DNA of 64,000 nucleotides from Knoellia sinensis KCTC 19936 (lineage in GTDB: Bacteria > Actinomycetota > Actinomycetes > Actinomycetales > Dermatophilaceae), in the NCBI RefSeq assembly GCF_000768705.1, contig NZ_AVPJ01000007.1:62001-126000 (forward strand), given 5' to 3'. The position numbers were made by a program, and so were the translations under genes. This document shows, piece by piece, positions 1 to 13,235 of this stretch; position 1 is the stretch's first letter, and every line of letters starts with the position of its first letter. The notes below the pieces were generated by a model. The model saw nothing but the letters and a program-made list of their open reading frames with translations, had not been told where the DNA came from and searched no databases.

Positions 1-768
1 GGAACGGGCCTCAGGGGTCAGGCGTCGCCCTGGGTCAGAGGACGTCGTGGCCGGGATGTGGCTCCGTCGGGATCGTCCCGAGTCGCCCTGCCTGGAAGTC
101 CTCGAACGCCTGCATGAGCTCAGCCCTCGTGTTCATCACGAAGGGGCCATAGGCCGCGACGGGCTCGCGGATGGGCTGCCCACCCATGATGTAGAGGTCG
201 AGGCTGGGGCTGCGGCTCTCCTGCGTGTCGTCGGCAGCCACCTCGAGCACAGCACCGGCCCCGAGGACGGCAAGCTGACCCATGTGGATCGGGCGCCGTT
301 CACTCCCCACGGTGCCCCGGCCGGCCAGCGCATAGACCAGGGCGTTGTAGCCGGGGTTCCACGGCAGGCGCACCTGCGCTCCCGGAGCGAGCGTGGCGTG
401 CACGATGCAGATGGGCGTGTGCGTCACACCCGGGCCGCCGTGACCGTCGAGGTCGCCGGCGATGAGCCGCAGGAGCGCACCACCGTCGGGGCTCGACAGG
501 AGGGCGACGTCGCCGCCTCGGATGTCCTGGTAGCGCGGTGGCGACATCTTGAGCGAGCTCGGGAGGTTGACCCACAGCTGGAGTCCGTGGAACAGGCCTC
601 CGCTCAGGACCAACGACTCCGGCGGCGTCTCGATGTGGAGCAGTCCTGAACCTGCGGTCATCCACTGGGTGTCGCCATTGGTGATCTGCCCGCCACCACC
701 GTGCGAGTCCCGGTGCACGAACGTCCCGTCGATGATGTAGGTCACCGTCTCGAACCCGCGGTGCGGGT

Positions 769-774
769 TCCACG
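769..774. other. Left junction core of the integrated element (6 bp)
   Basis: The plus strand reads TCCACG between pirin sequence (GTGCGGGT on the left) and the element end TTATCTGCATG on the right. The right-hand core is GCCACG, so the two cores differ by one base. This is the expected pattern when a tyrosine recombinase exchanges a short core and one end keeps the core brought from the previous site. The assignment depends on reconstructing the pirin codons. Confidence 0.75.
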
Positions 775-785
775 TTATCTGCATG
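775..785 (+). repeat. Left terminal inverted repeat of the element
   Basis: TTATCTGCATG pairs with the inverted copy TTATCTGAATG at the other end (12984-12994). Joined across the 6-bp core in a circle, the ends give CAGATAA, then 6 bp, then TTATCTG. This is the usual layout of a tyrosine-recombinase crossover site, with inverted arms flanking a 6-8 bp spacer. Confidence 0.75.
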
Positions 786-829
786 ATTCGAGGATCGGAT
801 GGGCGGTGACCTCGGGTTTCATCGTTCAC

Positions 830-1025
830 TCGCGTGGAGCCACGTGAGTCACGGGCCGATGAAAGTGGCCGGATGCGTTAAGGGCTTCGCTCGGGCAAGA
901 GCTCATGGAGCAGGTAAAGGCAGAGTAAAAGTTCGCCGTTCAAGTTGCGGGAGAGCAACTCTTGCCTTCACTGTTCTCGCTAGTTGGCCCTGCTGGGGGG
1001 CTGTTCGTAGTTCAGGGGTTGGGCC
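830..1025. promoter_or_regulatory. Upstream region of the rhs gene, with one inverted repeat
   Basis: This stretch lies inside the element and has no convincing gene. It is less GC-rich than its surroundings. At 943-960 a perfect 6-bp inverted repeat, AGTTGC and GCAACT around GGGAGA, lies about 65 bases before the rhs start codon. It could be an operator or a transcript hairpin. No clear -35/-10 pair was recognised. Confidence 0.35.
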
Positions 1026-4000
1026 ATGACGGCTTCCTCAGGTTTCTTCGACCGGTTGTATGTCGGTGGCCTGTTCCGGCCGGCGTTGCGGGGTGTGGCG
1101 TATGCCGCGTCCGCGGCGCTGGTGGTGACGATCGCACCGATCGCGGACGCCACCCCCACGGCCACGGCTGCCGCGGCCCCGGCGGCGAAAGCCCCGGCGG
1201 CGACGGTGTCCTCGCGCCCGGACGCGGTGTCCGCGCGGGTCGCGGCGAAGGCACAAGGCAGCCGGGTCGAGGTCGAGGGGTTGCGGTCGGGGTCGTCGTC
1301 GACGTGGGTGAACCCGGACGGCACCTGGACCACGCAGCAGCATCAGGGCCCGATCCGGTTCAAGGACCCGAAGGCGAAGGACCCGAAGACCGCGGCCTGG
1401 GTGAACGTCAACCTCGATCTGGAGGGCAAGTCGGATGGCACCGCTGGCGCAGTGGGTCACCCGGCCGGGCTGTCCCTGGCCGGCAAGACCGCCGGCGCGG
1501 GCAAGGGTGCGAAGGCGGCGGCTGGGTCTGATGCGGTCGCGGTCGACGAGAAGTCCGGCCGGACCGTCTCCATGGCGTGGCCGGGCGCGTTGCCGACACC
1601 GGTGATCAAGGACGAGTCGGCGACGTACCCGGAGGTGCTGCCGGGGGTGGATTTCGTGGTGCACTCGCGCCGGTCCGGGTTCGAGTCCGATGTGGTCATC
1701 AAGACCGCCGCGGCGCGGGACGCCCTCGTCGCGAAGGCCGGCGAAGGACCGGTGTCGTTCAGCTTCCCGCTCAGGACCAAGGGTTTGATCGCCCGCGCGG
1801 AGAAGGACGGCAGCGTCTCGTTCGTCGACAACAAGGACGCGGTGGTGTCGTCGTTCGCGGCGCCGATGGCGTGGGACGCGAAGGTGGACGCGAAGTCGGG
1901 GAACCGGGTCAACGAGTCCCCGGTGACGATGACCGTGGCGCAGAAGAACCCCGGGAACGCGATGCTGACCGTGACGCCGGATCGGGAGTGGCTGACCGAC
2001 CCGGACCGGGAGTTCCCGGTCACGATCGACCCGACCTACGCGACCGGGACCAGCATCACGACCAGCTTTGACACGTTCGTGTCGAAGTCGTGGGCGGAGT
2101 CGACGACGCCGCAGACGATGACCGAGCTGCGGGTCGGCACCTACAACGGCGGCGCCGACGTCGCCCGCTCGTACCTGAACTTCCCCATTGCCGGGATGCA
2201 GGGCAAGGACATCACCGCGGCCTCGCTGAGCTTGTACGAGTTCCATTCGTTCTCGTGCACCGCGATGCCAGTGACGGCGCACAACTCCGGTGCGGCCGGA
2301 ACCTCCACGACGTGGGGGAACCAGCCCACCCAGTATGCGCTGGCCGGATCCGTGTCGGTTGCGAAGGGCGCCACCGGATGCGCCGCCGGGCGGATCTCGG
2401 TGCCGATCACCCCGGTCGCGCAGGGCTGGGCGTCCTCGGGTGCCGCGAATGGGTCGTTGAAGCTGTCGGCGTCGGAGACGAACAACAACGGGTGGAAGAA
2501 GTTCTACTCCCTGGAGTCCAGTTCGGACCCGTACGTCACATACACGTACAACCGGAAGCCGAACGCGGCCGCCCTGCCCACTGTGGCGGGGGCGAACACG
2601 TACACCGTCCCGGGGACGAGCACGTCGTACGTGTTCACCAGGGACACCAAGCCGGCGTTTGAGTCGTCGGCGACCGACCCGGACGCCTCCAAGGTGCGGG
2701 TCACGTTCGAGGTCCACAAGGACACCAGCGGTGCCGCCGCCTCACGCGTCACCTCGTGCGAGACGCCTCTGGGGAACTCGGCCGCGACGGTGTCGTGCGA
2801 GGTCCCGGCCGCGTTGGCGCAGAACACCTCGTCGCAGCCGGCCTGGTACGTGCGGGCCGCGGTCCGCGACGAGCGGGGCCTGTGGAACGGGACGTGGTCG
2901 CCGTGGCGCACCTTCTACCTGCAGACGGGCGCCCCACCGGCGGCGGCGGTGTCCTGCGACCGCGGGTACGCCGCGGGGACGTGGACCGACACGGACCCGA
3001 CCGGTGAGGTCACCTGCACGGTGACCGCGGCCGGTGTCAATGGCGGCTACTCCGCCCCGGGCTACCTCGACCTCACCGTCGACGGCGTCGCCCAGCCCGA
3101 ACCGCTGCGGATCACCGCCACCAACGACACCACGAAGGTGCACTTCACCAAGAAGTACCCGGCTTCGGCGCGCGGGTATCACGAGATCACGGTGACCCCG
3201 ATCGGGCGGTCCCTGGTGCCCGGTCCGACGACCACGCACGGGTTCGGGTGGGGTGCCGCGTCCATGACGGTCCCGACTGACGGCACCACGTCGTCCGGGA
3301 AGATCAAGGTCGACGCCGGCGGCGCCCCGCGCGGGTCCGCGACGGCGGTGTCGGCGAAGGTGCAGTGGCGGGTCGCCGGGTCCGGCAACGAAACCACCGG
3401 CTGGACCGACGCCGCCGCCGGGGAGACGGTTATCACCCCGGGGTCGACGACCGTCCCGGCCGAGTACAAGAACAGAATCTTCGACCTCACCACGGCTGTG
3501 CGGGAGGCGGGGGCGTCCGCGGACATCCCGTCCCGGACCCCGGTCCGTCTCGACGTGCAGGTGTGCTTCATCTACAGCGGCGGGTCGGGTGCCGGCACGC
3601 AGTGCACCTGGTCCCAGTCCCCGGTGACGGTGACCAGGCTGCCGCACGCGTTTGGGGCCGGGTACCCGGTCGCCGACGCCGGGGTCGGGCAGGTTGCCCA
3701 GTACACCGGTGAGGTGTCCCTGTCCGGGACCGACGTGTCCGTGCCCGGGTACACCGGTGACATCTCCATCTCCCGCTCCCACACCTCCTTCGCCGGAGAC
3801 GGGTCCGTGACGAACTGGCCGTCCGACCCGGTGACGGGTGTGTTCGGGCCCGGGTTCACCGCCAACCTCGACGGCGGCGAGGCCGGCCTGGCCGGGCTGA
3901 CCGTGGTCGACAACACCGGCGTCGACGGCTCGATCGTGTTCATGGACGAGGAGGGCGAGCCGCTGGTCTATGTGAACCCGGCCGGGACCCGCACCTACCC

Positions 4001-7000
4001 CGCCGCGGGCACCACCTACGACGCAGGCACGGATGACACCGAGGATTCCGGCACCCTGCTCAAGCTCACCGGCACCGGCACGTCCACGGTGCTCACGTTG
4101 ACGGAGGAGGACGGGACCGCGACCACCTGGAAGCCGCTTGCCGCACCGTCGACGGCGTCGGCGACGGTGTGGAAGCCGGACACGATCAGCGAACCCGGCC
4201 AGACCGGGAAGACCACGTTCGGTCACGACGCGACCGGGCGGGTGACCCGGATCGTCGCCCCCGTCCCGGACGGCCTCGCGGGCTCGTCCTGCCCCACCAG
4301 CGGGCCCCTGGTCAAGGGGTGCCGCGCCCTCGACGTCGCCTACGCCACGACCATGACCGCGACCGGCACCACACCGGGTGACTTCACCGGGCGGGTCAAG
4401 TCGGTCACGGCGCAACTGTGGGACCCGGCCACGTCGTCGATGAAGCCCACCGTCGTCGCGGTCTACGACTACGACATGTCGGGGCGCCTCGTGCGCGTCA
4501 CCGACCCGCGCTCGGGGCTCGGCACCACCTACACCTGGTCCGGTGCCACGACCCGGATCGCGTCCGTCGCCTCCGCTGGCTTGGCGGCGACCAAGCTCAC
4601 CTATGACACGGGCGGTCGCCTCACCCAAGTCGCGAAGGAAGCCCCGGCCGCCGGTGGCGCCGACGTCACCACCAGCCGGTACGTCTACGACGTCCCCACC
4701 TCCGGCAGTGGGCTGCCGACCGTCGACGACGCCGACACGGCGTACCGGCAGGCCAAGGAACCGGTGACCGGGTTCGCGGTCTTCGGGCAGGACTACACCG
4801 GCCCCACCAGCGGGGGCGGGACGGACTGGACCTACGCGGACCTGTCCTACGTCGACGACCTCGGGTACACGGTCAACACCGCCTCCTACGGCGTCAACAG
4901 GTGGCTGATCACCTCCACCGACTACGACGCCCACGACAACGTCATCCGCACCCTCGACGCGTCCGCCGCGCAGACCGCCCGGGACAACCCGGCCTGGAGC
5001 GTCGACCAGGTCAACGCGCTCTCCACCCAAACCGTGTTCAACGCCGAGGAGAAGAACGCCGCCGGCGAGGTCATCCTCCCCGCCGGGTCCCGCGTCACCG
5101 ACACGTTCGCGCCCGCCCGCACCGTGTCGCTGGCCGACGGCACCACCGTCCCGGCGCGACCGCACACCCGCACCCTGTACGACGAGGGCGCACCCAACGG
5201 CGGGATCAACCCCGCCACCGGGCAGCGGTACTCCCTGGCCACGACCGAAACCACGGGTGTCTCGGACGCGGTCGCGGCATCGGGCGCGACCGACCTCGAG
5301 GTCCACTCCACCACCAAGACCGAGTACGGCAAGCACGACACCGCCGACGCCACCGAAGGCGACGGGTGGGCCCTCGGGACCGCGACCCGCACCACCACCG
5401 TCAAGCCCGGCGACAGCGCTGGGAACATCGTCAAGAGCACCCGGTACGACACGATGGGTCGGGTCACCGACACCCGCCAACCCCTCTCCAACGGTAACGA
5501 TGCCGGGGCGACCAAGACCGCCTACTACACGGTCGCGGCCCAGGGCGCACCGAACGCCGCGTGTGGTGGGAGGCCGGAGTGGGCCGGTCTGACCTGCCGC
5601 ACCCACCCGGCCGCCCAGCCGGCCGGGACCACCCTGCCCGACAGCGCCACGACCGGGTACTCGATGTGGCTCAAGCCGACCAGCGAGGTCGAAACCTCCG
5701 GGTCCTCGACCCGCACCACCACCACGACGTATGACGCTGCCGAACGCGCCGTCTCCTCGAAGGTGGTCGCGTCCGGGATCACCGGCTCCACGGCTCGTCC
5801 GGGGACGTACACCAAGTACGACACCACCACCGGGCTCGTCATCTACACCGGGCACCTCAACGCCGGCGGCACCGATGCCGACGGGACCGGCCGCACCACG
5901 AACACGCACGACCGGTGGGGACGGGTCACGAGCCAGTCCGGGGACGCCGGCCCGGTCACCACCGCCTACGACGCGGCCGGCCGGGTCAAGACCGTCACCG
6001 ACGCCAAGGGCACCACCACCTACGGGTACGACGGCGACGGTGAGCGCCGTGGTCTGACCACGTCCCTGACGGTCACCCGCGGCGGCACCGCCGGGAGCCT
6101 GACCTACGGTGCCACGTATGACGCCGACGGGAACATGACCCGCCAGACGCTGCCCGGCCAGCTCACCCAGGTCACCACGTACGACGAAGCCGGTGAGGCG
6201 GTCGGGTTGCAGTACCTCGGCCAGGTCACCCCCGTGACCGAGACCATCGACCCCGACACCGGCGAGACCACCTGGACCCCCGGCACCCCGGTGCAGGACC
6301 AGCCGTGGCTCACCTGGTCGACCGTCAACGACGCCGCCGGCCGGGCCCGGTTCGAAGCCACCGGCACCGGTGCCGCGTTCGACAACGGCAACGGGGTCGC
6401 CACCATCGACGACGTCACCGACTGGACCGCCGACGCGGCCGGGCAGGCCTCCAGCTACGGGCGGGAGTACCGGTACGACTTCGCCGGACGCCTCAGTTCT
6501 GTCGAGGACGCCTCCTCGGCGCTCGACCCGGGCGCCGGTGAGCTGGTCGCCTCGTGTGCGACAAGGGCGTACACGTTCGACAAGAACGGGCGTCGCACCC
6601 AGCTCGCCACCACCACGCGCGCCGGCGGCGACTGCACCGCCACCGGCACCTCGACGACCGTGGCCACGACCGGGTACGACGATGCGGACCGCCCCACCAC
6701 CGGCAAGGGCGGCGCCGGCACCTACGTCTACGACACCTTCGGGCGGCAAACCACCCTCCCCGCCGTCGACGCCCCCGACCCGACCAAGGGCAACATCACC
6801 CTCGGCTACTACGACGACGACCAACCCCGCACCGTCGCCCAGGGCGGGACGTCGACGACGTTCACCCTCGACGCGAGCGGGCGACGGTCCGTCCAGACCA
6901 CGACCGACCCGTCCGGGACCACTACGACCACCCGGCGGTACACCGACGACGGCGACAACCCCGCCTGGATCGACACCACCGGACCCCAGGGTTCGTCGAC

Positions 7001-7877
7001 GACTAGGTTCACCGAGTCCCTCGGCGGCGACCTGTCCGCCACCATCAACGACGACGGCGGCCTGTCCCTGTCCCTCGCCAACCCGCACGGCGATGTTGTC
7101 ACGACCGTCGACATTCCGGCCGCCCAAACCAGCGACACCGCGGCGACCGCGGTCACCGGCTGGGCCGCCTACGACGAGCACGGCAACAAGGCCTCCGCCG
7201 CGGATGTGGATGCGGTCGACGGGCCCCTCGGGTACGGCTGGCTCGGTGCCAAACAACGCGCCACCAGTACCGCCACCGCCGGGCTCACCCTCATGGGGGT
7301 GCGGTTCTACAACGCGGCACGAGGACTCTTCACGTCACTCGACCCGGTCCCCGGCGGCAACGACACCGCCTACAACTACCCCAACGACCCCATCAATGAA
7401 TCCGACACCGACGGACAGTGGAAGAAATGGAAGAAGTGGGGTCGGAACATCATGAGGTGGGGTGCCGGTAACTCGCGGAGCGCACGGTGGTTCCGAGGAG
7501 CATGCGGGTGGGCTCCGGGACTCGCGGGAACGGCCTGTGGTGCGTACCTTGCTGGATCCTACGCTTACTCCGGAAACCGGCGCCAAGCGGGTCGTTGGGC
7601 CATTAACGCCGCTGCATCGGCGTTTGGTGGCGGTCTGGTGAGCCGCGGCCTGACGCGAGGCCTCTGGGTCGCAAAGAGTTACAAGGCAAGCCGGAGGCTG
7701 TCGAAGAAGTCGCGGCGGTTCGGTGTGCTGCGCAGTGCGCGGTACATGTCCGCCCATGTTCACGGACTGGCGGCTAGCGGCGCCTCCAACCACGGCTACA
7801 GCGCATGGAATCGGAGGAGTTACCGGAACGCTTCCCGGAAGAGCTGGCGCCCTCGCGTCAACAGAGGCCTCCGTTGA
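1026..7877 (+). CDS. Secreted RHS/YD-repeat polymorphic toxin with DNRLRE-like domain
   Basis: This 2,283-residue protein begins with a basic segment and a hydrophobic stretch ending near ADA (residues about 20-42), which looks like a Sec signal peptide. A DNRLRE-like cell-wall domain spans about residues 335-505. A long YD-repeat RHS shell follows, about 1055-2130, closing with the conserved core ending RFYNAARGLFTSLDP and DTDGQ. The last 152 residues (from about 2132) are a variable tip with no recognised fold. The tip is rich in Arg, Lys, Gly and Trp, and its DNA is visibly less GC-rich than the core. In this family the shell encloses a C-terminal toxin released against neighbouring cells. 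The toxic activity here is unknown. The ATG follows only a weak purine-rich site. The gene is the main cargo of the transposon. Confidence 0.9.
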   Translation: MTASSGFFDRLYVGGLFRPALRGVAYAASAALVVTIAPIADATPTATAAAAPAAKAPAATVSSRPDAVSARVAAKAQGSRVEVEGLRSGSSSTWVNPDGTWTTQQHQGPIRFKDPKAKDPKTAAWVNVNLDLEGKSDGTAGAVGHPAGLSLAGKTAGAGKGAKAAAGSDAVAVDEKSGRTVSMAWPGALPTPVIKDESATYPEVLPGVDFVVHSRRSGFESDVVIKTAAARDALVAKAGEGPVSFSFPLRTKGLIARAEKDGSVSFVDNKDAVVSSFAAPMAWDAKVDAKSGNRVNESPVTMTVAQKNPGNAMLTVTPDREWLTDPDREFPVTIDPTYATGTSITTSFDTFVSKSWAESTTPQTMTELRVGTYNGGADVARSYLNFPIAGMQGKDITAASLSLYEFHSFSCTAMPVTAHNSGAAGTSTTWGNQPTQYALAGSVSVAKGATGCAAGRISVPITPVAQGWASSGAANGSLKLSASETNNNGWKKFYSLESSSDPYVTYTYNRKPNAAALPTVAGANTYTVPGTSTSYVFTRDTKPAFESSATDPDASKVRVTFEVHKDTSGAAASRVTSCETPLGNSAATVSCEVPAALAQNTSSQPAWYVRAAVRDERGLWNGTWSPWRTFYLQTGAPPAAAVSCDRGYAAGTWTDTDPTGEVTCTVTAAGVNGGYSAPGYLDLTVDGVAQPEPLRITATNDTTKVHFTKKYPASARGYHEITVTPIGRSLVPGPTTTHGFGWGAASMTVPTDGTTSSGKIKVDAGGAPRGSATAVSAKVQWRVAGSGNETTGWTDAAAGETVITPGSTTVPAEYKNRIFDLTTAVREAGASADIPSRTPVRLDVQVCFIYSGGSGAGTQCTWSQSPVTVTRLPHAFGAGYPVADAGVGQVAQYTGEVSLSGTDVSVPGYTGDISISRSHTSFAGDGSVTNWPSDPVTGVFGPGFTANLDGGEAGLAGLTVVDNTGVDGSIVFMDEEGEPLVYVNPAGTRTYPAAGTTYDAGTDDTEDSGTLLKLTGTGTSTVLTLTEEDGTATTWKPLAAPSTASATVWKPDTISEPGQTGKTTFGHDATGRVTRIVAPVPDGLAGSSCPTSGPLVKGCRALDVAYATTMTATGTTPGDFTGRVKSVTAQLWDPATSSMKPTVVAVYDYDMSGRLVRVTDPRSGLGTTYTWSGATTRIASVASAGLAATKLTYDTGGRLTQVAKEAPAAGGADVTTSRYVYDVPTSGSGLPTVDDADTAYRQAKEPVTGFAVFGQDYTGPTSGGGTDWTYADLSYVDDLGYTVNTASYGVNRWLITSTDYDAHDNVIRTLDASAAQTARDNPAWSVDQVNALSTQTVFNAEEKNAAGEVILPAGSRVTDTFAPARTVSLADGTTVPARPHTRTLYDEGAPNGGINPATGQRYSLATTETTGVSDAVAASGATDLEVHSTTKTEYGKHDTADATEGDGWALGTATRTTTVKPGDSAGNIVKSTRYDTMGRVTDTRQPLSNGNDAGATKTAYYTVAAQGAPNAACGGRPEWAGLTCRTHPAAQPAGTTLPDSATTGYSMWLKPTSEVETSGSSTRTTTTTYDAAERAVSSKVVASGITGSTARPGTYTKYDTTTGLVIYTGHLNAGGTDADGTGRTTNTHDRWGRVTSQSGDAGPVTTAYDAAGRVKTVTDAKGTTTYGYDGDGERRGLTTSLTVTRGGTAGSLTYGATYDADGNMTRQTLPGQLTQVTTYDEAGEAVGLQYLGQVTPVTETIDPDTGETTWTPGTPVQDQPWLTWSTVNDAAGRARFEATGTGAAFDNGNGVATIDDVTDWTADAAGQASSYGREYRYDFAGRLSSVEDASSALDPGAGELVASCATRAYTFDKNGRRTQLATTTRAGGDCTATGTSTTVATTGYDDADRPTTGKGGAGTYVYDTFGRQTTLPAVDAPDPTKGNITLGYYDDDQPRTVAQGGTSTTFTLDASGRRSVQTTTDPSGTTTTTRRYTDDGDNPAWIDTTGPQGSSTTRFTESLGGDLSATINDDGGLSLSLANPHGDVVTTVDIPAAQTSDTAATAVTGWAAYDEHGNKASAADVDAVDGPLGYGWLGAKQRATSTATAGLTLMGVRFYNAARGLFTSLDPVPGGNDTAYNYPNDPINESDTDGQWKKWKKWGRNIMRWGAGNSRSARWFRGACGWAPGLAGTACGAYLAGSYAYSGNRRQAGRWAINAAASAFGGGLVSRGLTRGLWVAKSYKASRRLSKKSRRFGVLRSARYMSAHVHGLAASGASNHGYSAWNRRSYRNASRKSWRPRVNRGLR

Positions 7878-8419
7878 ACAGCAGCGACGCACAGGTGCTT
7901 CCCGATGGACTTCTGGGGGCAGTTTGGGGCTCCTGGCCCTTTCTTGGGATCGCCATCGCTGGACTGCTAGGCGCGGGCCGACCGGTTAGCGAGGATGCGC
8001 TCCTGTTTTCGGCGGTGTTCTTAGGTTGTGGGCTGATCAGGGCGGGCCTGTGGCTACGACATCGACGGCGTAACCGCGTCGTCGTTCGTCGCGATCACAT
8101 CAGCATCGTTTCAGGTGGTCAGGCGGTCGACGTCGACCTTGCTGATGTGGTGTCGGCGGAATGGTGGTTTGGTCATCCATCGACCACATTCGACAGGATG
8201 CGGGACTACGCCATGCTGACTCTTGAGGCTCACGGCGAAGAACTAATCGTCGATCTGCTTCTATCGCGAGTCTCTGAGCAGAGGCGAGCTCTGACCGTCT
8301 TGGGTGCCGCGATGCCTACCGTCCCGTGGCGTGTCGGCTGGTCGACGGTTGGTGACAAGACCGTGGTCTGGGATCCAGGCATGAGCCCTAAGCCACCAAC
8401 ACGCGCCTTTCACGGGTAG
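7874..8419 (+). CDS. Small membrane protein, candidate immunity partner of the RHS toxin
   Basis: I do not recognise the family. The chosen TTG start at 7874 overlaps the rhs stop codon (TTGA) and has AGAGG six bases upstream, suggesting coupled translation. An in-frame ATG at 7805 lies inside rhs and has no ribosome site. The 181-residue product has two predicted membrane segments near the N-terminus. A basic patch (RHRRR) and a soluble domain of about 110 residues with alternating hydrophobic residues follow, perhaps PH-like. RHS toxin genes are usually followed directly by the gene that protects the producer. Position, overlap and low GC similar to the toxin tip suggest that role, but no sequence motif proves it. 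Confidence 0.6.
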   Translation: MNSSDAQVLPDGLLGAVWGSWPFLGIAIAGLLGAGRPVSEDALLFSAVFLGCGLIRAGLWLRHRRRNRVVVRRDHISIVSGGQAVDVDLADVVSAEWWFGHPSTTFDRMRDYAMLTLEAHGEELIVDLLLSRVSEQRRALTVLGAAMPTVPWRVGWSTVGDKTVVWDPGMSPKPPTRAFHG

Positions 8420-8743
8420 GTCTTCGCCGTTCGTGAACAATCCGGCGTGGCATCCACCGGGGGAGTCGTCCCGTCTGTCTCCAGCCGTTCTGCGGGCCTG
8501 GCCGGTCACCCAGTTCGGAAGTGCGAACACAGACCACATCCTCGGCCGGGCCCGGTTCGAGCCAACCGGCACACCGCTCGAAGAGTTCCTCCAGGTGGGT
8601 AGGTTGGACGCTTCAATCAGCTGCAACCAGTCCAGAACGACACCTCATGAGCCGCAACATCTATTCGACTCGCCATGGTTCTCGTGCTATCCGAATGTCG
8701 AAACCGGTATAGCCACGGTGAGTCGCATTGCCACCGACGCGGT
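8420..8743. other. Non-coding stretch between cargo and recombinase operon
   Basis: This 324-base stretch has no recognised gene. An open frame (8433-8828, plus strand) resembles no family known to me and runs into the helper gene on the other strand. Within it, 8544-8560 is identical to 6339-6355 of rhs, and the same frame there gives GRARFEPTGT against GRARFEATGT. It may therefore include a scrap of decayed rhs sequence. No terminator or promoter was obvious. Confidence 0.4.
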
Positions 8744-9337
8744 CTACGCACGATCTGCCAAGGGGGAACTGACTACTCCGGAAAGCCGGGACAAATCTCT
8801 CATGAGTAGCCGATTGGCGTCCGATTGAGCTTGGACCTGCGCTGCTAGTTCTTGGTTTTCGTCGGTCAACCGCCGGAGTTGCGGGCCGGTCTCCTCCCGC
8901 TCTCGATTCAGTGCCGCGACGGCCCCTTCGAGGTCGTGGATGCGTTCGACGAGTTCCGCTTGGGAATGCGTGCTGACTTCGGCGCCGAGCGATTCCTGGA
9001 GTCGTCGCCGGAGACGTGCGACCTCATGCTGCGCATCCTTCAGGTGTTCCCTGGCCAACGCAAGGTCGGTGCGGAGCCCCACAACTGTGGCAGCGTCCAC
9101 CGCGCCTGGCTGGGCTTGAGCCGATTGTTGGGCACGGGTGATTGCGGCGTCCACGACAGCACGAAGCTCGGGCACCTTGTAGACCATGTGGGTGCTGACT
9201 CGTGCGCGCGCGGTGATGGAGGCCCGGGTGATCACGCCACCTTCGGCTTCGATTTCCTCGATGGCGCGCAGGACCCGGCCACGTTTGACCGCGCTGTCAC
9301 GGCGGCGGGCCTCTGCCATGGGGGCGGTCTCAGGCAT
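8744..9337 (-). CDS. DUF6262 / TnpC-like helper of the transposon
   Basis: The 197-residue product has an N-terminal region that looks helix-turn-helix-like (ITRASITARARVSTHMVYK, residues about 36-54). A long Leu/Arg/Glu-rich segment that should form a coiled coil follows (about 90-180). DUF6262 proteins accompany paired tyrosine recombinases in Tn554-like elements. In Tn554 the corresponding small gene, tnpC, affects transposition frequency and orientation. The ATG overlaps the end of the upstream recombinase gene by 8 bases and has AAGGAG six bases upstream, so it is the last gene of the three-gene operon. Confidence 0.8.
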   Translation of the reverse strand: MPETAPMAEARRRDSAVKRGRVLRAIEEIEAEGGVITRASITARARVSTHMVYKVPELRAVVDAAITRAQQSAQAQPGAVDAATVVGLRTDLALAREHLKDAQHEVARLRRRLQESLGAEVSTHSQAELVERIHDLEGAVAALNREREETGPQLRRLTDENQELAAQVQAQSDANRLLMRDLSRLSGVVSSPLADRA

Positions 9338-11756
9338 TCTGACTCCTTCGATCGATCACCATGAGGTCGAGGAACCGGCGGCTCTTCCGGATCTCGGCGT
9401 GGAAGGTTTCGTAGATGGCCTGCTCCTCAGGTGTGAGCGTGGTCAACTTCTCGTGCATCTTCCGCAGCACGGCCTGCATCATGCCGACGTTGTACTCAAG
9501 GTTCTCCACCACCGGCCGGGTGGCGCTGAGTTCGGCGATGGCGATCTGGGCGCGCAGGTTCTTGATCTCCTGCTCGATCTCGGGGATGTAGGTGGGGTCG
9601 GGTCGGTAGTGGTTGCACGCACCGCACTGGAATCGGATGGGGCAGCTGCGTCCTCCGGCCTTGACGTTGGATGGTTCGACGCATCCACCCAGGATGGTGG
9701 CCACTTCGGTGCGTTCGTAGGCCTCCAGGTCGCGGACCGGGCGGCTGCGTCCGTGGGTGTCCACGCGCAGTTTGTTGAGCACCTCGATGGCTTCACGCTT
9801 TCGCTTGCGGCTGACGTGGAAGTAGCCGGTGGTGGTGTCCAGGCTGCGGTGGTCCATGAGTTCTTGAAGGATCACCGGATCGATGCCCGCGTCCGCGGCC
9901 AACTGGGCGTACGCGTGCCGGAACCCGTAGAGGACGAGCTGCTCGTCAAGGAAGGGATCGCCCGCTGCGTCAAGCCGGGCCAGGAGTTGAGGTAGTTCGT
10001 CTAGGCTGCTCGTCCACTTCCGGAACGCCTGCCCGAAGTAGCCGCTGGTGACTGGTCGCGTGAAGGTGGTTCGGACGGTCAGCATGGGGAACAGTGGCCC
10101 CGAGGGGTCAGGATTGGGGACCTTGGATCGCAGGAACTCCTGCCAATCGAGGATGATGTCGACAGTGCTCCGCCAGATGGGGAGCCTGCGACCGAGGCGC
10201 TTTCCCTTGCGGTTGTCCCAGATGAGCAGTCCGCCCTCGTCGTCGACGTCACGCAGGCAGTTGAACCGCAGTTCCGTGGCCTCGTAGGGCCGCCGGCCGG
10301 TGTCGCGCAGGACTTTGTAGATGGTTTGCCACAGGTGGCCGTAGTCGTCGTTGGTCCAGCCATCGGCGCGGTGGCTGCTGCGGAAGTTCGGCTTGAACGA
10401 GGCCAGGTTGTCGTCCAGGAAGGCGATCACGTCTTCGGGGATCGCGTCACCGGGCTCCTCGTACGGCTGGGTCTTGTTCTGCTTGCGCATCCGGTGCATC
10501 GGGTGGAACGCGAACCCCTCGGGTATCCCGGCCATGTATCCGGAAGTCCTGCAGTGCAGGAGCATCTGCTTGAGCCGTCCAGCCATGCGCGTGGCTTCGG
10601 TGTAGGACAGGCCGCGGACAGTTTCGAGGTCTTTCACGATGCGCGTCATGTGGCGGAGGTCGGCCTGGGTGCGATCGTCAAAGGCCGGGGTTGCCCGCAG
10701 CGAGGCCGAGGCCGCCTTGCATGCCCTCAGGTACTGCGTCACGTCCTCACGACGCGGCAGGGTGTCCGCGACGTAGCGCTTGCCCAGGTCGCGGAGCCAG
10801 AGGCAGTCCACGTCGCACCAGTCCCAGCCGGTGCGTGGGACAACTCGGCGTTCCTGCGATGACGGGAAGAGGAACTCTGCGTGAGGTGGCCAGACGTCGC
10901 CGGCCAGCACATCGGTGCCGGTGTAGCGGTCGTGCAGTTCCGCGACGTAGGGCCGGAGGTTGTCGACGCACTGCGCGGCCTTGTGAGGCAGGACGCTGGT
11001 GTCGACGTCCAAGAGGGATATGCAGGACTCGATGTGAGGCATGAGTTGTCGGATCAGGAACGGGGCCACGGCGAACTCGGCCAGGTCGCGACGTTGCAGG
11101 CCGTACAGAATCTCGGCCCGCAGTGTCTCTGAGCAGTACTCCAACGTGAAATGGTGCGCGGGAAGGACACGGCGAGCCTGTGAAGCGAAGATGCGCGGCT
11201 CGACATCGAGGCTGCGTGCCTCGGCGTGATGGGTCCGGCACAGCTCCGTGTTGCCCGCAGTTCGCTGCTTCACGCATCCGGCGACATCGCATTCGCCCAA
11301 CGCGGGCAACGGGGTCTGCGACATCGCCCACGCAATGATTGCATCGTCGGACCACTTTGTGCCGCCGACCTTGTGGAGGGCGCTGTAATGGCGGCGACAG
11401 AGCCCATGCACGCAACGGACCCGTTCGCATCCCGGGACTCGCCCCTGCCCGCACACGGCGTCGTCCAAGGGCTTGGCGACCGGCGTTTCACCGCGGGAGA
11501 CTGCATTGCGGCAGCGAGCACAGTGGCCCTTCTTGACGATGGCGGCCGTGTCGCATCCGGGGGTCATACATCCGTACGCGATCGTCCTCGGGTTCGTTTG
11601 GTCACTGGCGAAGATGTGCGTTTCTTCGTGCCACTCGCTCGGTCTCCACCCGTCGTCGAGGTGGCGGGTGACGAACGCCGTCCAGGTCTCGCCGGGTTGC
11701 GGAGTTGGTGTCGCCAGGACTCTCAGTGCACCCCCACCACCGGAAGGCCGTGCCAT
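9330..11756 (-). CDS. TnpB-like large tyrosine recombinase
   Basis: The protein has 808 residues. The start was chosen at the ATG that overlaps the upstream stop codon (TGATG at 11754-11758). Earlier in-frame codons belong to the neighbour's frame. Cys-rich segments at about residues 63-120 and 156-174 look like small zinc-binding modules. The C-terminal recombinase domain shows Arg488 (DTGRRPYEATEL), Arg613-His614 (LYGFRHAY), His636 (LMDHRSL) and the nucleophile Tyr645 (TGYFHV). A second Cys cluster follows (Cys692, 705, 711, 714) and then a helical tail. The usual His two residues before box II is Tyr610. Together with TnpA-like it would catalyse excision and integration. Confidence 0.9.
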   Translation of the reverse strand: MARPSGGGGALRVLATPTPQPGETWTAFVTRHLDDGWRPSEWHEETHIFASDQTNPRTIAYGCMTPGCDTAAIVKKGHCARCRNAVSRGETPVAKPLDDAVCGQGRVPGCERVRCVHGLCRRHYSALHKVGGTKWSDDAIIAWAMSQTPLPALGECDVAGCVKQRTAGNTELCRTHHAEARSLDVEPRIFASQARRVLPAHHFTLEYCSETLRAEILYGLQRRDLAEFAVAPFLIRQLMPHIESCISLLDVDTSVLPHKAAQCVDNLRPYVAELHDRYTGTDVLAGDVWPPHAEFLFPSSQERRVVPRTGWDWCDVDCLWLRDLGKRYVADTLPRREDVTQYLRACKAASASLRATPAFDDRTQADLRHMTRIVKDLETVRGLSYTEATRMAGRLKQMLLHCRTSGYMAGIPEGFAFHPMHRMRKQNKTQPYEEPGDAIPEDVIAFLDDNLASFKPNFRSSHRADGWTNDDYGHLWQTIYKVLRDTGRRPYEATELRFNCLRDVDDEGGLLIWDNRKGKRLGRRLPIWRSTVDIILDWQEFLRSKVPNPDPSGPLFPMLTVRTTFTRPVTSGYFGQAFRKWTSSLDELPQLLARLDAAGDPFLDEQLVLYGFRHAYAQLAADAGIDPVILQELMDHRSLDTTTGYFHVSRKRKREAIEVLNKLRVDTHGRSRPVRDLEAYERTEVATILGGCVEPSNVKAGGRSCPIRFQCGACNHYRPDPTYIPEIEQEIKNLRAQIAIAELSATRPVVENLEYNVGMMQAVLRKMHEKLTTLTPEEQAIYETFHAEIRKSRRFLDLMVIDRRSQNA

Positions 11757-12889
11757 CAGCGGGTCCTCGACCGGGCTGCCTGCAGGGCCGTGAGTGCTTC
11801 GCGCTTCCCCGCATCTGAGGTGTGCCGGTACACGGCCGTGGAGGCCAGGCTCGCGTGGCCCGCGAGCTCTGCCACCGTGGCGATGTCGACGCCTCCGTCC
11901 ATGAGGTCGGTGACGTAGGTGTGCCGAAGCATGTGCGGACGGAACTCGACGCCCGACTTTCGCGCCAACCGATCGAAGCACCGTTTCGCGTTGCGGTAGC
12001 GCAGCGGCGAGGTCCGGTTCTGGGTGAAGTACAGGTTGATGAACACGAACTCCGAGCAGTCATCGGGCACCAGTACGTGCCGTTCAAACTGATAGACGCG
12101 GTAGGCGTCGACGACCTCATCGGTGACGGGCACTGCCCGAGGGTGGACACTTTTCGCCCATGCCCCGTTCTCGTTCCGCCGTCGAAGCACGTGCACGTGC
12201 GGGCCGCAGATGCGACACCCCAAGCTGGTCGAATCGCTGAGGAAGTGCATGTCGCCTCGATGCAACCCGATCGCCTCACCGATCCGGACACCCGTATCGA
12301 GCATGAGCTGCACGAGGAGGTCATCACGGGCAGTCCTCGAGGCCCTGAAGACCTGGTCCAGCTCACGGCTCGACAGCGCCTCTGGTGGTCGCCGCGGGTT
12401 GCTCACTCTCAGCGCGCTCGACCTCCCGTTCCGCCGCCGGAACTGGCCCTGCTCGCCCTCGAGCTGCCCAGGACGGAGGTAGTCGATGAACGTGGAGTCA
12501 GTGCTCAGCCGCGCGAACACCGCGGCCCCCATGAGGCCGCTCGACGCCGCGTACTGCAGGAAACTGTGGATCGCCGTGAACATCAGGGACACCGTTCCCG
12601 GGGCGGGAGGCCGACCGTAGCGCGTCGGCGATGACTCAACGAGGTGCCTGAGCAGGACGAGCTGCCGCAGACTGGCCTTGGCCCAATCGATGCCCGAGTC
12701 GTGGCAGTAGTTCAAGAACATGGCCACGTACGGCACATACGACTTGAGGGTGTTCTCAGATCTTCCCGCCGCCTCGAGCGCCACGACCCAGTCCCGCGCC
12801 GGCACGAACACGCGCAGATCCGAATCCAGGACGAGCCACGTGTCAGCAGCCCCCGACCTGCGGGCCCTCTCCACGACATACGGCGGCAC
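11756..12889 (-). CDS. TnpA-like tyrosine recombinase
   Basis: This 377-residue site-specific recombinase has an N-terminal SAM-like core-binding domain (about residues 30-135) and a catalytic domain from about 170. Active-site residues are visible: Arg202 (TGVRIGEAIGL), His319-x-x-Arg322 (RPHMLRHTYV), His345 (LAGHASL) and Tyr354 (STAVYRHT). It starts with GTG about 95 bases from the right inverted repeat. It is first in an overlapping operon with the TnpB-like and TnpC-like genes, an order typical of Tn554-family elements. Confidence 0.9.
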   Translation of the reverse strand: MPPYVVERARRSGAADTWLVLDSDLRVFVPARDWVVALEAAGRSENTLKSYVPYVAMFLNYCHDSGIDWAKASLRQLVLLRHLVESSPTRYGRPPAPGTVSLMFTAIHSFLQYAASSGLMGAAVFARLSTDSTFIDYLRPGQLEGEQGQFRRRNGRSSALRVSNPRRPPEALSSRELDQVFRASRTARDDLLVQLMLDTGVRIGEAIGLHRGDMHFLSDSTSLGCRICGPHVHVLRRRNENGAWAKSVHPRAVPVTDEVVDAYRVYQFERHVLVPDDCSEFVFINLYFTQNRTSPLRYRNAKRCFDRLARKSGVEFRPHMLRHTYVTDLMDGGVDIATVAELAGHASLASTAVYRHTSDAGKREALTALQAARSRTR

Positions 12890-12983
12890 TCCGTGACGGT
12901 AACCCGTGCCTCAAGACGTCCAGACTATTTCGAGCCACGGCGTGTCCGGCTCCAGGCTCTCACGTCAATCAAGGCTCCCGGTC

Positions 12984-12994
12984 CATTCAGATAA
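12984..12994 (-). repeat. Right terminal inverted repeat of the element
   Basis: The minus strand reads TTATCTGAATG, matching the left end (775-785) at 10 of 11 positions. It abuts the 6-bp core at 12995-13000, beyond which pirin codons resume. Confidence 0.75.
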
Positions 12995-13235
12995 GCCACG
13001 GCGTGCCCTTGGGCTCGCCCGGCGCGTATTCCACCTCACCCATCTGGTCCATGTGGATGAAGGGGTCGAGGGCAGCGAGGTCGACGCCGGCGAAGGCCCG
13101 GCGGACGGGGAAGCCCTCCCCCTCGAAGCCCTGCGGCGCCGTCGTCACGCCGCTGACCGGTCTGGTGACCGCGTCGGCGCGAGGCTCCGCGACGCGGGGC
13201 AGCGCGAGGATGTTCTCGACAGTCACTGCTGGCAT
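12987..13235 (-). pseudogene. Pirin-family protein, N-terminal fragment (split by mobile element)
   Basis: The first 80 residues read as a pirin N-terminus. They include GFEGEGFPVRRAFAG, DPFIHMDQMGEVEY and GEPKGTPW, the segment that normally runs straight into HPHRGFETVTY. After GTPW the frame enters the element, adds two codons and stops at 12987. The start ATG (13233-13235) has GGGAG seven bases upstream. The missing 244 residues lie at 35-774, 12.2 kb away on the same strand. The fragment is therefore the promoter-proximal half of the interrupted gene and cannot form either complete cupin barrel. Confidence 0.9.
12995..13000. other. Right junction core of the integrated element (6 bp)
   Basis: The plus strand reads GCCACG (CGTGGC in the pirin sense). 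With pirin flanks on both sides this core gives TGG CAC CCG CAC, coding W-H-P-H as expected for the family. It is therefore taken as the native target core. The other junction has TCCACG. Confidence 0.75.

Follow-up and report, generated by a model that had tools for sequence, protein, structure and literature searches.

We conclude with high confidence that the pirin gene of Knoellia sinensis KCTC 19936 is interrupted by a site-specific transposon of the actinobacterial Tn554-like class, which carries an RHS gene as its cargo and is inserted in the codons of the pirin metal-binding motif. The element spans positions 775 to 12994 (about 12.2 kb) of the window, the 64,000-nucleotide stretch of contig NZ_AVPJ01000007.1 that was analysed, and its features are listed in Table 1. 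The assignment to the Tn554-like class had been proposed in the initial annotation of this DNA and is backed by gene content, homology, the terminal repeat and the asymmetry of the cores. The two tyrosine recombinases, the DUF6262/TnpC-like gene and the RHS gene named in that annotation are all present.

Table 1. Features of the transposon and of the split pirin gene (positions in the window)
Feature	Position	Strand	Evidence
Pirin, C-terminal part (most of first cupin and Pirin_C)	35..768	-	Pfam PF02678, PF05726
attR core CGTGGA, read as donor footprint	769..774	-	8/8 orthologues have C at last position
Right terminal inverted repeat TTATCTGCATG, + strand reading	775..785		10/11 match to other end
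RHS protein, 2283 aa	1026..7877	+	PF05593, E 8e-8, over cut-off; TIGR03696, E 4e-5, below cut-off
Candidate immunity gene, 204 aa from first start	7805..8419	+	Position only; hydrophobic stretches by eye
ORF, 131 aa, perhaps not a gene	8433..8828	+	No family match
tnpC-like gene, DUF6262	8744..9337	-	PF19776, E 1.4e-9, over cut-off
tnpB-like long tyrosine recombinase, 808 aa	9330..11756	-	PF00589 just at cut-off
tnpA-like tyrosine recombinase, 377 aa	11756..12889	-	PF00589, E 2e-29
Left terminal inverted repeat TTATCTGAATG, - strand reading, 105 bp before tnpA	12984..12994		10/11 match
attL core CGTGGC, taken as target-derived	12995..13000	-	Same six bases in 6/8 orthologues, TGGC in 8/8
Pirin, N-terminal part, 80 codons up to W of WHPHRGFE	12996..13235	-	Joined-halves query

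Results

The split pirin was examined with a query made of both pieces joined, which was run against all nine genomes of the genus, the source genome (3.99 Mb in 61 contigs) included. Each of the eight other genomes has one uninterrupted open gene that matches this query over 316-324 of its 324 residues with 62-91% identity. In the source genome the query returns two pieces, residues 1-81 and residues 72-324, the latter being the C-terminal part, which matches at 98%. The initial annotation had read the two pieces as halves of one pirin gene and had named two findings that would speak against it, relatives with no pirin at this place and pieces from different pirins; the relatives do have one uninterrupted pirin, and both pieces match the same gene. 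Nothing lies between the halves in any of the eight other genomes in the joined-halves search. Genes for mnmA and cysteine desulfurase adjoin pirin in four of these genomes, as they do in the window, and are absent from the approximately 1.5 kb flanks searched around pirin in the remaining four. A second pirin-like gene with 27-31% identity is found in all nine genomes of the genus and is therefore not a replacement that arrived with the element. Because the insertion parts the 80 N-terminal codons from the rest, the split pirin is very probably inactive. The dN/dS of the split gene against five uninterrupted orthologues is 0.08-0.20, compared with 0.12-0.29 among those five, which suggests that the pirin has escaped selection for only a short time. 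The recent insertion proposed earlier is supported by these values and by the open frames of both halves, but no date follows from dN/dS, since dS to the nearest relatives is 0.6-1.0.

On the minus strand the junction on the tnpA side reads GGCACGC-CGTGGC-TTATCTGAATG and the far junction reads CATGCAGATAA-CGTGGA-ACCCGCAC. The inverted repeat of the inner ends matches at 10 of 11 positions; of 200000 pairs of positions drawn at random within the element, 14 equal this match. The limits of the element, given earlier as 769 to 13000, shift to 775 and 12994, with the 6-bp cores now flanking it. The two cores differ by a single base. All eight uninterrupted pirin genes have the motif W-H-P-H-R-G-F at the split, with the codon CAC for its first H, and the target-like core is therefore the one adjoining tnpA. 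When the halves are joined as in the initial annotation, they do give a continuous frame of 324 residues, but this frame reads W-N-P-H-R-G-F, with an N where 8/8 orthologues have H. The N codon spans the far-end core, and one base of the joined frame is probably not derived from the target. A published model, in the available part of its text, places the 6 bp of the target at attL and a fingerprint at attR (PMC10214605), and another paper, also available in part, speaks of an 'att brought in' via the circle (PMC12486829). The asymmetry and polarity of our cores agree with the Tn554-like and SE footprints in those parts of the two papers. A later point mutation would equally explain the one differing core base.

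The transposition module consists of three genes whose frames are all open. The start of tnpB overlaps the stop of tnpA, and both genes run in the same direction. The window TnpA is 26% identical to the TnpA of a Bacillota element (E 2e-35), and the window TnpB gives a profile match of 96.4% to the Bacillota TnpB (E 1.3e-9) over 404 columns. Tyrosine recombinases are expected to carry R, HxxR, H and Y at their catalytic positions. These are invariant in TnpA and TnpB across five aligned elements, except that all five TnpB proteins have Y in place of the first H of HxxR. Conservation at the catalytic positions makes it plausible that the element is still mobile. A second copy was not found in the source genome. 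Weak matches to GmtY and GmtZ (E 1e-5 to 5e-5) reach 24-25 bits against a cut-off of 340 and 22 bits against a cut-off of 600, so that the window recombinases fall below the curated thresholds for these families. The PADLOC search gave a single weak match, of the TnpC-like protein to LmuB (E 5e-5); we took it as coiled-coil likeness and rejected this identity.

The RHS protein has a hydrophobic N-terminal stretch that looks signal-like by eye, followed by YD repeats, the RHS core and a variable C-terminal tip. Its family is present in 14 of the 247 other genomes of the order sample, and the relatives are 33-54% identical to it. The 203-residue tail was compared with those of eight usable relatives (L141-L148), L140, L154 and L149 (contig end) and L150-L153 being left out. 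Similarity ends at residue 50-52 in L143, L144, L146 and L147, which have nothing in common with the window tail past the core, and extends to residue 122-199 in L141, L142, L145 and L148, which share part of it. The protein has two of the features expected of RHS polymorphic toxins, namely a C-terminal tip that varies among otherwise similar proteins, and YD repeats over the cut-off together with an RHS-associated core below it. The tip itself has matches, mostly weak, in 5 of the 247 other genomes and no match to toxin families, and its single-sequence structure prediction is poor (mean pLDDT 54). The small gene downstream, earlier named as a candidate immunity gene, keeps this status by its position, but has no family match, and neither the 247 other genomes of the order sample nor 72,556 plasmid records contain a relative. 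The cargo is thus a possible RHS polymorphic toxin with a possible immunity gene. The G+C content of the bin 8001-9000, between the RHS gene and tnpC, is 60.7%, compared with 64.7-71.8% in the other 1-kb bins of 1001-13000.

Genes of the tnp type are absent from the 15 context stretches read around RHS relatives (L140-L154; three are whole short contigs) and from two plasmid contexts, and RHS genes of this kind therefore usually lie outside such elements. In these two plasmids, from Arthrobacter agilis and Tessaracoccus flavescens, the RHS relative stands shortly after conjugation-type secretion genes, from which one small gene separates it. A link between the RHS and tnp contigs of another genome, G041, was considered and rejected, the tnp contig having no RHS match; this contig has an IS3-type transposase fragment upstream, as judged by eye.

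Relatives of the module are scarce and distant. Used alone, the window TnpB finds no relatives in the named genomes, and an alignment of five TnpBs used as the query finds 61 named genome loci. TnpB relatives occur in 3 of 395 other genomes of the order sample (E 1e-20) and in 95 of 72,556 plasmid records. At E 1e-40, TnpA relatives occur in 5 of 395 others in the phylum sample and in 7 of 185 other genomes of the family (best 40%), with no pirin within the 1.5 kb flanks of these family matches. The main aligned stretches of TnpA and TnpB relatives are at most 46% identical, the best TnpA being the 46% match in L039, and one 68-residue piece of TnpB in L165 reaches 53%. The initial annotation had asked whether other TnpB homologues are also flanked by pirin halves. 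Pirin lies beside none of the tnpB relatives at 61 genome loci and 4 plasmid loci within the available flanks, several of which are short contigs, and we rejected it as a common target of the class. The one pirin insertion found is that of the window. As there is neither a second copy nor another pirin insertion, a single insertion is all that speaks for a site preference of this lineage. A phage origin was also rejected, given no TnpB match in 50,697 phage records and one weak partial match in viral contigs.

The RHS cargo had been called unusual, and the survey bears this out, for an RHS gene occurs at 1 of 65 other tnpB loci, 45 of which reach 7 kb or more past tnpB. This locus, L059, is from Streptomyces hyaluromycini (NZ_BCFL01000032). 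It has a split ABC-transporter gene, whose far piece, located by a protein query, occupies contig positions 77536-77742 and whose near piece occupies 92758-93171. The RHS gene, at 79858-86079 as converted from the coordinates of the locus, falls between the two pieces and hence within the element. Elements of this class thus rarely carry RHS genes, and those that do have at least two targets. An attempt to pair the ends of L059 by computer yielded pairs indistinguishable from chance. A further tnpABC element, at 6943-15329 of L029 (NZ_CP108868, Streptomyces sp. NBC_00829), splits an ABC-transporter gene, the same kind of target as that of the S. hyaluromycini element, and has as its cargo a class II lanthipeptide synthetase (LanM) gene, likewise of an offensive type.

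The targets of the relatives were examined in the near-side flanks of tnpA, printed for 49 loci, of which ten were domain-scanned, a non-random choice made for an open frame reaching tnpA. In six of these ten flanks the gene is interrupted inside a conserved domain or where such a domain ends. The Phage_integrase domain stops at profile position 136/172 in L038, L067 and L041, the Resolvase domain at 129/145 in L027 and the OB domain of NAD-dependent DNA ligase at 56/79 in L033, and the flank of L059 stops at the last ABC_tran position, the gene resuming elsewhere. The other four flanks hold a complete domain, T2SSF in L046 and L064 and GmrSD_C, on the opposite strand, in L051 and L058, so that no cut is demonstrated there. 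In L163 a RadC piece stops at 78/121. Judged by eye, the flank of L164 terminates in an NGCGAC motif, that of L166 in a DNA-methylase-like LPDQMFYNT motif and that of L155 after an IS3-type transposase motif. The elements of L038, L067 and L041 are recombinase elements living inside tyrosine-recombinase genes, and in L033 the tnpA relative directly follows the truncated ligase frame.

Both sides were located for the window and for three ABC-transporter insertions. The latter reveal that a sister lineage reuses a site, and in all three the far-end core is unlike the near-end core. These three elements have TTATCY at their far ends and ATATCTATAG instead at their near ends. Upstream of tnpA, TTATCY is also present in 6 of 15 further TnpA-matching loci (L033, L164, L165, L166, L024 and L032). 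Its distance to the estimated tnpA start is about 106-117 bp in the first five, compared with 105 bp in the window; recomputed by hand, it is about 117 bp in L024 and about 127 bp in L032. The motif was not found within the available stretch of the other nine loci, among which L026 and L171 have a partial TnpA match and an unreliable start. In L163 the motif precedes the annotated start of tnpA by 135 bp.

Discussion

A comparison outside the phylum is offered by the radC-splitting element of the Bacillota on Exiguobacterium plasmid p1 (NZ_CP075898), which we take to be of Tn554 type from its gene order and its radC target. It shares with the window element homologous TnpA, TnpB and DUF6262 proteins, TTATCY beside the near junction, and insertion beside a conserved motif, by eye HQHPSGDP of RadC. 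It differs in its resistance-gene cargo, its radC target and the length of TnpB (632 compared with 808 aa), and the alignment leaves out roughly the first 265 columns of the window profile. The order tnpA-tnpB-tnpC is shared with this element and with Tn552-II, as far as the available part of the source tells (PMC12486829). The actinobacterial class related to Tn554 was described in 2012 (PMC3414803). In the available portion of that paper, its transposons, like that of the window, have one long (611-828 aa) and one short (about 350 aa) tyrosine recombinase, mostly together with a TnpC relative, and belong to Actinobacteria. The word pirin is absent from that portion and its three 'RHS' strings are catalytic-motif entries; this text therefore describes neither a pirin target nor an RHS cargo. 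Neither feature was found described in the open-licence literature on the Tn554-like class. The window element is a further case of this known actinobacterial class, with a pirin target and an RHS cargo not found described.

The S. hyaluromycini element resembles that of the window in its tnpABC genes, in the RHS gene convergent with the tnp genes and in the gene split by the element. It differs in its ABC-transporter ATPase target, in an RHS protein 31% identical to ours and in extra HTH (ArsR-like) and MFS genes. A system of Gammaproteobacteria also has two tyrosine recombinases, a 6-bp footprint of the same polarity and target specificity, but it has four core genes and its hosts are Gammaproteobacteria. 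Gamma-mobile-trio elements are said, in the accessible part of a citing paper, to carry offensive (T6SS) and defensive cargo (PMC12715929). They are mobile elements with cargo, as is that of the window, but their recombinases are only weakly similar to ours, as compared via NCBIfam profiles and within the source as available.

We propose a mechanism in which TnpA and TnpB, aided by DUF6262/TnpC, would recombine both ends of the element into a circle, where one 6-bp core would lie between two inverted TTATCTG arms. The circle would then insert between the W and the first H of the pirin metal-binding motif WHPHRGFE. The core of the target itself, CGTGGC, would come to lie at the tnpA-proximal junction, and CGTGGA, the core carried over from the earlier donor site, at the far one. 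The RHS toxin candidate and the possible immunity gene would benefit the carrier against competing neighbours.

Several other readings deserve consideration. The tnpABC part alone may have first moved into pirin, with the RHS gene and its neighbour coming separately, and RHS relatives in 14 of the 247 other genomes of the order, with no tnp genes in 15 context stretches, are consistent with such a history. The RHS gene, however, sits between two repeats that are joined directly to the pirin halves, the eight other genomes of the genus have nothing between these halves, and a second RHS gene with the same convergent layout lies inside the S. hyaluromycini element. These points make a separate entry very unlikely. 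The relationship to other recombinase elements raises the question of whether this one is gamma-mobile-trio-like or RIT-like instead of Tn554-like, as the weak GmtY and GmtZ matches might hint. Those matches remain far under the curated cut-offs, and the third gene encodes DUF6262, as in the Bacillota element, with no third recombinase present; we find this placement hardly credible.

It is also conceivable that what is left of the element is no longer active and that the split pirin is an old pseudogene. Its single copy in the genome would fit this, as would the lack of a close recombinase relative in the samples searched, where the best TnpA match is that of L039. We nevertheless consider it unlikely, given that the frames of the three tnp genes and of the two pirin halves are all open and that the dN/dS of the halves is not above the range among the uninterrupted orthologues. 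Our preferred reading is thus a Tn554-like transposon that brought its RHS cargo into pirin. Beyond it, we tentatively put forward a joint reading, which may well prove wrong in one part or another, that actinobacterial Tn554-like elements move whole polymorphic toxins between unrelated hosts and combine this with motif targeting and a memory in their cores. The home of each lineage may be DNA cut at the codons of a conserved catalytic or metal-binding motif, such as HPHRGF of pirin, HQHPSGDP of RadC, the D-loop of the ABC ATPase, the HxxRHT box of the integrase and others. Such codons might be chosen because they are the most predictable DNA in any genome, and the far-end core may be a six-base memory of the previous home.

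In summary, the window supplies a member of the actinobacterial class for which both ends are known and relatives show the uninterrupted target. It shows that the cargo of such elements can be a giant toxin candidate, beyond resistance genes. Lineages differ in the conserved gene that they occupy, and several of these genes are cut at codons of a conserved domain, which offers a testable rule for locating ends and cargo, and the far-end core may provide a route to asking where an element originated.
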